DNA of 36,900 bases from assembly GCA_013202295.1 (NCBI GenBank), contig JABMRT010000177.1, positions 1 through 36,900 on the forward strand, in the 5' to 3' direction. A program made the translations under genes and the position numbers. Positions 3,083 to 36,890 of the stretch are shown here, in pieces (the first letter of the stretch is position 1; each line of letters begins with the position of its first letter). This stretch comes from Candidatus Zhuqueibacterota bacterium. GTDB lineage: Bacteria > Zhuqueibacterota > QNDG01 > JABMRT01. Below the pieces are notes generated by a model. The model saw nothing but the letters and a program-made list of their open reading frames with translations, did not search any database and was not told where the DNA came from.

Positions 3083-3328
3083 ATGTCTGATTCAATTACG
3101 AAATATAAGTCTTTAAGACCGCTTTATAAGAGTTTTACTGACAAACTTGTAGCCTTATTAAAGGAAATATTGGATGATAATGGGATAAAATATTACTCAA
3201 TAGAAAGACTGATCGCCTCGGGATTCCCATCCCGGGGTGTTGAAATTTGTAGAGGATTGAATCATCTTAATCATTACGCCCAAGGATCGGAATCCTTGTA
3301 CGATCAGAAACTGTATACATCAATATAA
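3083..3328 (+). pseudogene. N-terminal remnant of a RelA/SpoT-domain (p)ppGpp synthetase-like gene
   Basis: The first 42 residues from ATG 3083 match the usual beginning of small RelA/SpoT-domain proteins: KYKSLRPLYKSF, then LVALLKEILDDNGIKYYSIE. In the family this is followed by an SRTK stretch and the nucleotide-binding core. Here the resemblance stops at codon 42 (bases 3206-3208). From base 3209 on, the frame merely reads through two inverted copies of a palindromic element (3209-3307) and ends at 3328. All catalytic parts are missing, so this is a 5' gene fragment. The assignment rests on recognition of the N-terminal pattern alone. Confidence 0.6.
3209..3307. repeat. REPIN-like pair of inverted palindromic elements (copies A and B)
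   Basis: Copy A (3209-3238, plus) and copy B (3277-3307, minus) share the pattern GATC-N5-GGGATTCC-N-ATCC-NN-GGG. Each copy folds into a stem around a four-base loop (GGGAT-TCCC-ATCC in A). The two copies face each other across about 38 bp, so the whole 99 bp can also fold as one long imperfect hairpin. Two inverted REPs with a short spacer is the layout of a REPIN. No REP-associated transposase is present in the window. Confidence 0.65.
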
Positions 3329-3386
3329 TTATAGTAATAAAACATATAAATAATATATTTCACATAAAACTGAGAAAAGTGAATAT

Positions 3387-4214
3387 ATGAATTATGAACC
3401 ATTAACAGTTGATGAATTTGCAATGCTTGAGAGAGCAAATGGTACAAATGTGATAAAAATAGACGATATTTGGTGGACCGAAGTAAAACCTTTTTTTTTC
3501 CGTCCATTATTGCCATTTAGAGAGATAAATCCAATATTTAATAAAATTCCCTTAAAATTTTTAATCGGTGGTTATCAGCATGTTGTTGATTCCAGGATAC
3601 ATTCAAATTCAACAATGAGCTTCTTTGCTTTTGATGATATTCAAAATTATTCATTTGACAATTTGAGCAGCAGCCGTAGAAATGTGATACGGAGGAGTTT
3701 GAAAAATTTTTCAGCTAAACAAATGAAGGATGAGAAAGAATTTGTGAATGATGCATTTAAGGTTTATGTATCATTCTATGAGCGAACTAAATATTATTAT
3801 AATAAAAAGCGAATAAATAAGAGTTATTTTTCAGCATGGGCAGAAATTCTTTTTAAATTCCCAAAACTGATGATTATTGGCACCTATCATCAAGATAAAT
3901 TATCTGCCGTGAGTATTTCTTTCTTAATAGATGAGAATATTATTGATGCAACTTTTTTTTCTGATACACAAAGTCAGAAAATGCAGGTAACTGATTTCAT
4001 ATTGCACACTATTAGAGAAACTGCATCCCATTCAGATGCAAAGTATATCCTTAGAGGAATGCCTTCCGGGAAAGAGGGTTTGGATAATGCAAAGTTAACA
4101 AGAGGATGTAGACTAATTAAAAAACCAGCTTATTATAAAATTAATCCAATTACATCATTGGGATTAAAGCTTTTTATGAAAAACAGCTTCACAAAAATTG
4201 AAGTTGACGACTAA
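3387..4214 (+). CDS. GNAT/FemAB-like acyltransferase
   Basis: The 275-residue protein has the layout of FemAB-like proteins with a GNAT fold. An N-terminal part carries TVDEFAMLERANG, a WW pair (near residue 30) and RPLLPF. The SSSRRNVIRR basic stretch (near 100) resembles the S.RR.IRKA motif of the family. A Y..FYER helix follows, then strands with GTYHQDKLSAVSISFL and, at the end, GLDNAKLTRGCRLIKKPAYYKIN. No signal peptide or membrane segment is seen, so it is probably cytosolic. The acyl donor and acceptor are unknown. It is paralogous to the gene at 36009-36890. The coding sequence is clearly AT-rich, unlike its neighbours, which suggests transfer. The SD is weak. Confidence 0.65.
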   Translation: MNYEPLTVDEFAMLERANGTNVIKIDDIWWTEVKPFFFRPLLPFREINPIFNKIPLKFLIGGYQHVVDSRIHSNSTMSFFAFDDIQNYSFDNLSSSRRNVIRRSLKNFSAKQMKDEKEFVNDAFKVYVSFYERTKYYYNKKRINKSYFSAWAEILFKFPKLMIIGTYHQDKLSAVSISFLIDENIIDATFFSDTQSQKMQVTDFILHTIRETASHSDAKYILRGMPSGKEGLDNAKLTRGCRLIKKPAYYKINPITSLGLKLFMKNSFTKIEVDD

Positions 4215-4292
4215 ATGCTCATGATATGAAAATTGAGTAACCTTAATATAACACCTCGCTGAGACTCCCGCCTCTGCGGTAAAACCATACAT

Positions 4293-4319
4293 CCCATTGA
4301 CGGAAATCCTTGCGTGATC
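4293..4319 (-). repeat. Degenerate copy (E) of the palindromic element
   Basis: On the minus strand this reads GATC, ACGCA, AGGATTTCC, then a degenerate right arm ending in TGGG. It aligns with copies A-D, with one extra base and a decayed second half. It lies between the acyltransferase gene and the esterase remnant. Confidence 0.45.
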
Positions 4320-4417
4320 GGGGATTCAATTTATTTGCTAACCAAATCGAATGTGATAACGTCTCATATGATATACATTCTGTTTTTATCTAACCTAAAA
4401 ATCAAGAGAGGCCCTCA

Positions 4418-4588
4418 ATGAGAAAAGGTATTCGATTTACCTTGGTCTTACTCTTCATCCTTATGCAATCAAGCGCTTTCTCCCAGACAGACAATGGCGT
4501 TCAGATCGGTCACCTGGAAACCGTTCATTCCAAAATCCTGAATGAAGACCGGCCGATTTAAATCTGTCTTCCCGGCGATTGCTTGTGC
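4418..4588 (+). pseudogene. N-terminal remnant of a secreted esterase (esterase D/PF00756-like)
   Basis: From ATG 4418 there is a clean signal peptide (RKGIRFTLVLLFILMQSSAFS), then VHSKILNEDRPI, which resembles the start of the putative-esterase family where the next residues are usually WVYLP. Here codon 48 is TAA (4559-4561), and the same frame continues past it as ICLPGD. One point mutation therefore seems to have created the stop. The resemblance ends at 4588, where palindromic element C begins. The catalytic Ser, Asp and His are all missing. The identity is inferred from about 20 residues and the signal-peptide context. Confidence 0.55.
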
Positions 4589-4617
4589 CGCCCAAGGATC
4601 GGAATCCCTGGGCGATC
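4589..4617 (-). repeat. Palindromic element, copy C
   Basis: On the minus strand it reads GATCG, CCCAGGGAT, TCCG, ATCCTTGGG. This is a 9-bp stem with one G-T pair and a UNCG-type loop. It abuts the broken esterase gene on one side and lies 14 bp past the stop of the beta-propeller gene on the other. It could therefore also act as a transcription brake for that gene, although no T-run follows. Confidence 0.65.
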
Positions 4618-4631
4618 GATTTTATTTTTCC

Positions 4632-9072: not shown

Positions 9073-9104
9073 CTGATCACTCTGGATTTCCAATCCGGGG
9101 GCGA
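9073..9104 (+). repeat. Palindromic element, copy D
   Basis: It reads GATC, ACTCT, GGATTTCC, A, ATCC, GG, GGG. Spacing is identical to copy A, and the changed stem bases still pair (several G-T). It lies in the 157-bp gap between the esterase gene and the UROD-like gene. Confidence 0.55.
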
Positions 9105-9168
9105 GAAAAATCTTGGAGGTTTGAATTATCCTGAAGGTGACATCCAAAGGAGGCAATAAATTAAATCC

Positions 9169-14688: not shown

Positions 14689-14800
14689 TTGTCATCCTGA
14701 GTGAATGAAATGAACGAAGGATCTGAGTAAGTATAATTTGTGCAAAAACATTAAAGCGATTAGATTCTTCATCCTGACAAAACGATACTCAGAATGACAA
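14689..14800. repeat. GTCATCCTGAG intergenic repeat, copy 1, at a convergent junction
   Basis: The ends form a 14-bp inverted repeat with one mismatch (TTGTCATCCTGAGT and ACTCAGAATGACAA). Inside are CGAAGGATCTGAG and TTAGATTCTTC, the typical body of this widespread bacterial intergenic repeat. It fills the gap between two convergent genes and can fold from either strand. It may therefore serve as a bidirectional terminator. Confidence 0.7.
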
Positions 14801-19430: not shown

Positions 19431-19601
19431 TTTGTCATCCAGAGGGAGCGAAGTGACTGAAGGATCTGAGTAGTATAAATGTAATGCGGAAAGTGCCACG
19501 CATCCCACTTGAGCGGGGTACGTGGCACTTTGAGACTATTAGATTCTTCTCCCGCCAAGACGGGATCCCCGAAAAGAAATCGGGACAGGCAGAATGACAA
19601 T
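19431..19601. repeat. GTCATCC intergenic repeat, copy 2, at a convergent junction
   Basis: It shares TTGTCATCC at the left end, GAAGGATCTGAGTA and AGATTCTTC inside, and AGAATGACAAT at the right end with the copy at 14689-14800. It is longer because it encloses an extra perfect hairpin, AAAGTGCCACG (19490-19500) with CGTGGCACTTT (19521-19531). Like copy 1 it fills the gap between the ends of two convergent genes. Confidence 0.7.
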
Positions 19602-36008: not shown

Positions 36009-36890
36009 ATGACTGATTCTGCACATTTAGAATTACATAATTATCAATCAATGACAGTGAATGAGTATGCTGCTTTTGAGCAGGCAACGACAAATGAGCA
36101 ACTCCTTAACAAGGATGGATTCTGGTGGCGGCGGGTGCGTCATGGTTTTTACCGCCCTCTTACTCCGTTCCTACCCGAATTAACTCCAAGTTCAAAACCG
36201 CATGGGAGTTTGGTGCAATATGGTCTTTATGACACTGCTCATGCGAATTCATTTCTTAACCTGATTGTTTTTGATACTAATAATCAATACCATTCGAATA
36301 ATTTATCACAGAGTATGCGACGTCATTTGAAGATAGCAGTAAACCAGGGATTGAATGTTAAACAGATTTCTAATCCACGTATTCTCATGGATCAGGCTTA
36401 TAATGTATATAGATCATTCGTGTATAGAACAGGCTATGAGTATGACAATAAAAGAATTGTTGCAGATTTCTTTCAGAAGTGGATTTTATCTTTGCAAAGA
36501 TTTCCAAAGTCAAAACTTCACGGTGTTTTTTATAAAAAATATCTTCTTTCGTTCCAAATCTCTGTATTGGTGGAAGATGTTCTGGTTCTTAAAACCCTAA
36601 TTAATTCAAAAATGGGGCTTCAATTGCATTCCTCTGATCTACAACTCCATTATTACAGGAAGATTGCATGCAAACAAGAGAACATCCGAATGATTTATGA
36701 CGGATATTTTTCTCAACGGTATGGTCTGAACCTATACAAGCTGATTCGAGGGGCTAAAGTCTGGTATCTGCCTGCAAGGATTGATGCTCCATTTCCTCTT
36801 CTCATGATGGCTCGAATCATACGCCCGCTAGATTATAAATATTTGATGGGATTTACTGAATATGAGCTTTCTCATGAATATAAGTGCTGA
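36009..36890 (+). CDS. GNAT/FemAB-like acyltransferase, paralogue of the 3387-4214 gene
   Basis: The 293-residue protein shares with the gene at 3387 the N-terminal pattern MTVNEYAAFEQA, a WW pair and FYRPLTPF, plus SQSMRRHLKIAV and YNVYRSFVYRTGY motifs in the same order. Both therefore belong to one family, though well diverged. There is no signal peptide or membrane helix. The late part differs (GLNLYKLIRGAKVWYLPARI against GLDNAKLTRGCRLIKKPAYY). The acceptor is unknown. It is AT-rich and follows the envelope operon by 67 bp; membership in that operon is possible. The SD is weak. Confidence 0.65.
   Translation: MTDSAHLELHNYQSMTVNEYAAFEQATTNEQLLNKDGFWWRRVRHGFYRPLTPFLPELTPSSKPHGSLVQYGLYDTAHANSFLNLIVFDTNNQYHSNNLSQSMRRHLKIAVNQGLNVKQISNPRILMDQAYNVYRSFVYRTGYEYDNKRIVADFFQKWILSLQRFPKSKLHGVFYKKYLLSFQISVLVEDVLVLKTLINSKMGLQLHSSDLQLHYYRKIACKQENIRMIYDGYFSQRYGLNLYKLIRGAKVWYLPARIDAPFPLLMMARIIRPLDYKYLMGFTEYELSHEYKC

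Follow-up and report, generated by a model that had tools for sequence, protein, structure and literature searches.

The window analysed here is a 36,900-nucleotide stretch of a Candidatus Zhuqueibacterota draft genome. Near its left end lie two 5′ gene fragments, each followed by a palindromic element (A and C), with an intact gene between them. The first frame (3083-3328) opens with MSDSITKYKSLRPLYKSFTDKLVALLKEILDDNGIKYYSIER, enters element A and reaches its stop at 3328. Its first 42 codons (3083-3208, + strand) resemble the beginning of a RelA/SpoT-domain gene: residues 1-41 align without gaps and colinearly with positions 4-44 of phrog_9640 (E=0.008). Members of this family encoded elsewhere in the phylum (L071-L073; about 350-360 aa) all carry PF04607 (RelA_SpoT). 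With the domain beginning at residue 48, 47 and 51, respectively, the fragment would correspond to the segment preceding the catalytic domain. There are thus good grounds, on a match of 41 residues, for regarding it as the N-terminal segment of a RelA/SpoT-domain protein with the catalytic domain absent. The 42 residues gave no convincing match in Pfam, NCBIfam, PADLOC or PDB, nor among plasmids and phages; a Lysinibacillus match (E=0.02) was rejected because the matched stretch contained no RelA-like frame. The fragment was absent from all relatives searched, the nearest of which belong to other genera, and hence no empty site was available for element A or for element C.

Element A (3209-3307) is a complete nonautonomous element composed of two inverted units with a common central hairpin. 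CM R1 matched it twice, at 3209-3267 on the + strand (E=9e-13) and at 3251-3307 on the − strand (E=1.5e-13), and further copies were found elsewhere in the genome. The left unit (3209-3267, +) consists of TGATCG, hairpin 1 (CCTCGGGATTCCCATCCCGGGG), a spacer and the shared hairpin 2; the right, inverted unit (3251-3307, −) consists of the shared hairpin 2, a spacer, hairpin 1′ (CAAGGATCGGAATCCTTG) and CGATCA. The ends read (C)TGATCG...CGATCA(G), and the element starts at 3209-3210. The expectation that resemblance to RelA/SpoT would be lost at 3208 and the element begin at 3209 was therefore borne out by both phrog_9640 and CM R1.

An intact gene for a 275-aa protein (3387-4214, + strand) lies between A and C and matched neither Pfam nor NCBIfam. 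By eye its product resembles that of 36009-36890 (PLTVDEFAMLERANG.../SMTVNEYAAFEQATT...), which also had no Pfam or NCBIfam match; both are possibly FemAB/GNAT-like.

The second fragment (4418-4561, + strand) is the 5′ part of a gene for a secreted PF00756-type esterase: 47 codons followed by a nonsense codon at 4559-4561. The stub (4418-4558) reads ...IGHLETVHSKILNEDRPI, stop, and then ICLPGD in the same frame. Its homologue L050, a PF00756 protein (E=1.7e-16), reads IGFYRTIHSEIMNEDRLLYVHLPEGY, and the two are 36% identical over residues 7-52 (E=6e-4); the stub on its own had no match in Pfam. Homology persists in frame to about 4579, some 10 nt short of element C. The esterase fragment is a pseudogene twice over, having acquired a nonsense codon and lost everything past about 4579. 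As the stop codon precedes element C, this decay may be independent of the element.

Element C (4589-4619, − strand) is a single hairpin 1 with a CGATC foot (fold z=-2.2), the remnant of a larger element that has neither hairpin 2 nor a second unit. CM R1 matched it over 4543-4619 (E=1.1e-6), the match being convincing for hairpin 1 alone. According to the original prediction the esterase resemblance would end exactly at the element boundary. It is indeed lost within a few codons of C; the exact coincidence did not stand, the stop codon coming earlier and C being half an element, so that the joint lies inside the element and not at its outer end.

A proposed third member between them, element B (about 4240-4330), was rejected: its fold does not exceed that of shuffled sequences (z=-0.9), the CM match is not credible (E=1.8), and its place as the middle copy of a series was not confirmed. 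A probable decayed unit of the family lies between two genes at 9073-9131 (+ strand; E=0.0011 in a search of the window, 0.15 in a search of the whole genome). The sequence CCCAAGGATCGGAATCCYTG, with 3 mismatches allowed, occurs twice in the window and in none of 100 shuffles, and chance is not likely to be the cause of this repetition.

Two other kinds of repeat were seen in the window. One is intergenic, takes the form TTGTCATCC-GAG--GAAGGATCTGAGTA and is present in 2 copies (14689-14729 and 19432-19472, 83% identity); TGTCATTTCGAATC stretches at another locus of the genome (L034) resemble it. A large metallophosphatase gene on the minus strand contains internal direct repeats at 741-1396 (172 nt/75% and 141 nt/85%, spacing about 330).

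Structure and distribution of the repeat family

A CM R1 search of the whole draft genome (5.15 Mb) revealed 22 distinct loci at E<1e-3. The copies are single and dispersed over about 20 contigs, and most are intergenic with apparently intact genes on either side. The family was also detected in 9 of the 13 related genomes tested.

The unit is 57 nt long. It opens with TGATCG and hairpin 1 (about 11 pairs, TTCC-type loop), after which come some 10 nt of spacer and hairpin 2 (7 pairs). The TGATC foot is identical in all 14 aligned units and varies in some weaker copies. It occupies the place at the hairpin foot where canonical GTAG-type REPs have the tetranucleotide GT[AG]G, which is absent here. 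In the alignment 90.4% of stem cells are paired, an excess that is partly built in, because the copies were aligned by sequence and the structure was drawn up by hand after a single unit. The stronger support for the stems comes from two-sided changes, observed in 27 cells compared with 9.1 in shuffles. The covariation score was 0.355, and 0.047-0.159 when the structure was slid along the alignment.

Besides A, two complete short elements (L004 and L005) were recognised. All three measure 95-97 nt from TGATCG to CGATCA and are built as an inverted pair of units with hairpin 2 in common, the arrangement of about 100 nt that characterises REPINs. Folded as DNA, each was more stable than its shuffles (z=-3.5 for A; -7.5 and -4.8 for L004 and L005). 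No consistent target-site duplication was found at the element ends: most pairs of flanks have none, and the copy on contig C248 has a 7-nt match. The sequence outside the ends is AT-rich, with T immediately before TGATC in 19 of 28 cases.

Two further forms of repetition were noted at family loci. A 177-nt version with two separate copies of hairpin 2 occurs on contig C33 and at C193:4107-4283 (L016, L102, L106); it has a conserved spacer, CAGAACATTC, the copies are 93-96% identical, and one is cut within the last hairpin. On contig C176 (L119) the 82 nt adjoining the element form a 92.7% direct repeat about 1.1 kb apart (1559-1640 and 367-448), perhaps a duplication linked to the element.

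A RAYT gene between inverted units

One copy of the family, on contig C193, encloses a gene for a RAYT-type Y1 transposase of 184 aa (L032:1384-1938; PF01797, E=3.7e-5), one of 8 PF01797 matches in this genome. The order is (G)GATCG-hairpin 1-hairpin 2-ORF-hairpin 2′-hairpin 1′-CGATCA, the left unit having the foot GGATC. The protein contains the motifs HMH, WQ, YMHDNPVR and WKYSSARNW, all of which are RAYT motifs, and an alignment of 8 homologues shows conservation of HxH, of the Y in Y-x-H-x-N-P and of W-x-YSSA. It combines the features by which a RAYT is recognised: a Y1/HUH domain with a RAYT-type Y motif and flanking palindromic units that are also dispersed in the genome.

A search for relatives with the single sequence found none, and a search with the alignment found 436. 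Orthologues with 51-64% identity are present in four related genomes (G007, G004, G008 and G039), with one more in a Marinifilum MAG. These too are flanked by inverted GATC-footed two-hairpin units, with different stem sequences. More distant RAYTs (43-37%, e.g. in Chryseobacterium and Flavobacterium) had almost no R1 matches, and two of them, read by eye, have flanking palindromes lacking the TGATCG unit.

Around the other Y1 genes of this genome (L029-L031, L033-L036) the R1 search yielded nothing at E up to 1. Five of them (L031, L033, L034, L035 and L036) are RAYT-like and, by eye, each has its own palindromes on one or both sides, such as AACCTGCCAGGTT..AACCTGGCAGGTT, CCTCCCGAAGGC..GCCTTCGGGAGG and CCCTGACAGGG. 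Because of these palindromes the genome may host several parallel RAYT/repeat families.

Since inverted units bracket a RAYT gene both here and at the orthologous loci, the elements are best explained as nonautonomous REPIN-like elements belonging to that RAYT. From the co-occurrence of units and gene we infer that the short elements may be mobilised by the C193 RAYT. Two subfamilies can be distinguished, GGGGTTGTGCCCC/GAGGGC (GGGG/GAGGGC) in the RAYT-bearing copy and GATTCCnATC/GGATTCAATCC in A and C; because they differ, another RAYT may serve A and C.

Gene ends at element boundaries

The most precise joint was found on contig C52 (L127), where a reading frame, at least 123 codons in length, leads into a TGATC unit. 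The gene has a paralogue on contig C246 (L283), with 95% identity along the 155 nt that end in ...CTTGAAATCTT. At this point the C246 paralogue goes on with AAACCAGAAC and its sequence reads AAACCAGAACATG...GATTTGTAA, whereas the C52 copy reads TGATCACCCTGAGG and passes into a unit whose start is TGATCACCC; its last approximately 92 codons are gone. The C246 copy runs off its contig at the 5′ side, so that it is intact only along the stretch used for the comparison and in its 3′ part. Another paralogue, on C71 (L034), agrees with C246 and has a frameshift. Neither paralogue carries the element. Alignment with the paralogue thus shows, exact to the nucleotide, that the element's outer end is at TGATC and that the gene is cut at the same place. 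Comparison with an intact version, which had been advised for the two genes of the window, was feasible for this third gene. It supports the suggestion that the element marks breakpoints or deletion joints, and no intact homologue carrying the element at the same codon was seen.

Further frames enter elements on C259 (34 residues), at C193:4227 (36 residues) and upstream of the RAYT gene on C193 (121 residues), and a probable 3′ gene fragment lies at the element on C56. None of them matched a Pfam family, so these cases are only suggestive. At C, C259 (L105) and C56 (L121) the gene fragment joins the truncated side of the element, which points to deletions ending within it.

The 3′ parts missing from the window had been expected beside other copies of the element. 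The draft assembly (5.15 Mb, 95.65% completeness) contains neither that of the RelA/SpoT gene nor that of the esterase gene. Its single PF04607 gene is full-length, and phrog_9640 gave zero matches. Of 11 PF00756 matches, a single one has an element within 1.5 kb; it is an open frame of 681 aa.

Origin of the truncated genes and relation to known systems

We consider it probable (roughly 80%) that A and C are nonautonomous REPIN-like elements moved by a RAYT and that insertion together with deletion of neighbouring DNA left the 5′ stubs. An inverted pair of 57-nt units with TGATCG feet would be moved by a Y1 (HUH) RAYT encoded elsewhere in the genome, which would cleave single-stranded DNA at the TGATC foot, the foot presumably acting as the guide. 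Element A would have inserted into a small RelA/SpoT-type gene, and C beside or into an esterase gene. Later loss of neighbouring DNA would have removed the 3′ parts of both genes, plus half of the element at C, so that 5′ stubs ending at an element remained. The joint on C52, exact against an intact 95%-identical paralogue that has no element, is the reason for reading such joints as scars of insertion and deletion. That deletion followed insertion is inferred; the same appearance would result if a rearrangement had carried an element already present to the end of a gene.

The elements could instead be passive, with deletions or rearrangements stopping at hairpin-rich repeats through replication slippage or cruciform breaks and joining unrelated gene ends to elements already in place, without any insertion into the genes. 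The fragments at C, C259 and C56, which meet the truncated side of their element, fit this reading, as do the 3′ parts missing for A, C and C52. We hold it possible, though clearly the less likely reading: at C52 and A the fragments meet the outer end exactly at TGATC, as insertion predicts, and the family has the character of a mobile element, with multiple copies and a transposase inside one. Ordinary pseudogenes whose ends happen to meet elements would be in keeping with the esterase stub having its own stop before the element and with the RelA/SpoT stub being identified by 41 residues only. Such coincidence is very improbable for three independent genes (A, C and C52) that end about 0-10 nt from an element, and at C52 the exact joint relative to the paralogue largely excludes it.

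The original prediction also considered that the element targets genes. A preference for inserting close to the 5′ end of coding regions, switching genes off, would account for stubs of 34-47 codons at A, C and the putative frames on C259 and at C193:4227. However, the majority of the 22 copies are flanked by genes that look intact, for which reason gene targeting is not needed. Moreover, the C52 joint comes after at least 123 codons, C56 leaves an apparent 3′ fragment, and outside the element end there is only the AT-rich sequence with its frequent T at -1. This reading can therefore be given hardly any credence, and even less is due to an integron-like (attC-like) recombination site with the stubs as truncated cassettes of an array. 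In the window a palindromic element does stand downstream of small genes in a row. However, attC conserves just short end boxes, whereas in the inverted units seen here both the TGATC feet and the loops are conserved. The copies are single, spread over about 20 contigs and mostly set between ordinary genes, the transposase inside one of them is Y1 and not a tyrosine integrase, and element B, which an array would require, is unsupported.

The REPIN-like reading of A and C agrees with what is outlined for REPIN/RAYT systems (REPtrons) of Pseudomonas fluorescens and E. coli (PMC3116915, PMC3733652). REPINs are described as inverted pairs of REPs, thought to be moved by RAYTs, with singlets arising by decay or deletion of the partner (PMC3116915); REP families have GTAG or CGTC feet and lie mostly downstream of genes and sometimes within them (PMC3733652). 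Those systems and the present one share inverted short hairpin units with conserved outer feet, dispersed and mostly extragenic copies, units flanking a Y1 transposase gene, singlets ascribed to decay or partner deletion, and intragenic copies. Compared with the same accounts, the foot here is TGATC instead of GTAG (or CGTC), the units contain two hairpins apiece with the central one common to both units of the short element, the approximately 22 loci fall below the large REP families, and some copies meet truncated genes.

The system is probably closest to TnpA-Y1 subclass 2.6, judged by motifs only. This subclass is equated with RAYT group 5 of Bacteroidetes and is outlined as having atypical flanking structures without GT[AG]G, with copies in the genome (PMC6006769), both of which apply here. 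The proteins on both sides are about 180 aa long with WQ, Y-x-H-x-NP and an SS motif near the end; the C193 RAYT has WQ, YMHDNP, YSSAR and non-GTAG flanks, a comparison by motif only. The motifs given for the subclass include NH[LIV]H and YIH[QN]NP (PMC6006769). In contrast to that NH[LIV]H, the HUH box is TH[ML]H in the closest members (THMH in the C193 RAYT), and the flanks are resolved here, in KSB1-type bacteria, as a two-hairpin TGATC-footed unit. Some RAYT genes flanked by other terminal inverted repeats have been described (PMC3733652). These TIRtrons (TIRYT) likewise have RAYT-like genes with inverted non-GTAG flanks, some doubly palindromic and some belonging to repeat families; the motif reported there as common to some of them is GGGGWSAS, as against TGATCG here (PMC3733652). 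A short search of the literature (PMC3116915, PMC3733652, PMC6006769) met with no TGATC-footed two-hairpin unit in the accounts given there.

IS200/IS605 elements and their nonautonomous derivatives resemble the family in the Y1 HUH transposase, in subterminal hairpins with a short guide at the foot and in that no target duplication is expected. The present family differs from them in its inverted, near-symmetrical units and its RAYT-like protein (NPVR, YSSAR), and next to the C193 RAYT gene no tnpB was noticed.

The best reading of the stubs is that the repeat inserted, neighbouring DNA was lost and the genes were broken in this way, and not that a new gene-targeting device was at work; the TGATC-footed bipartite unit is a variation within a known type of system, REPIN/RAYT. 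Such systems are widespread, and the usual description of their repeats is GTAG-footed and intergenic. The TGATC family has another conserved foot, covarying bipartite units, a compact transposase-carrying copy and one joint mapped to the nucleotide. It is a concrete substrate for asking whether the foot serves a RAYT as its guide and whether RAYT activity gives rise to insertions and to deletions next to them. A more far-reaching proposal, which we consider rather doubtful, is a clade of TGATC-guided RAYTs with bipartite ends, in KSB1-type bacteria and some Bacteroidota, whose cleavage at the element end would actively delete adjacent DNA. If this were true, the elements would be gene-truncating agents and not neutral extragenic repeats.
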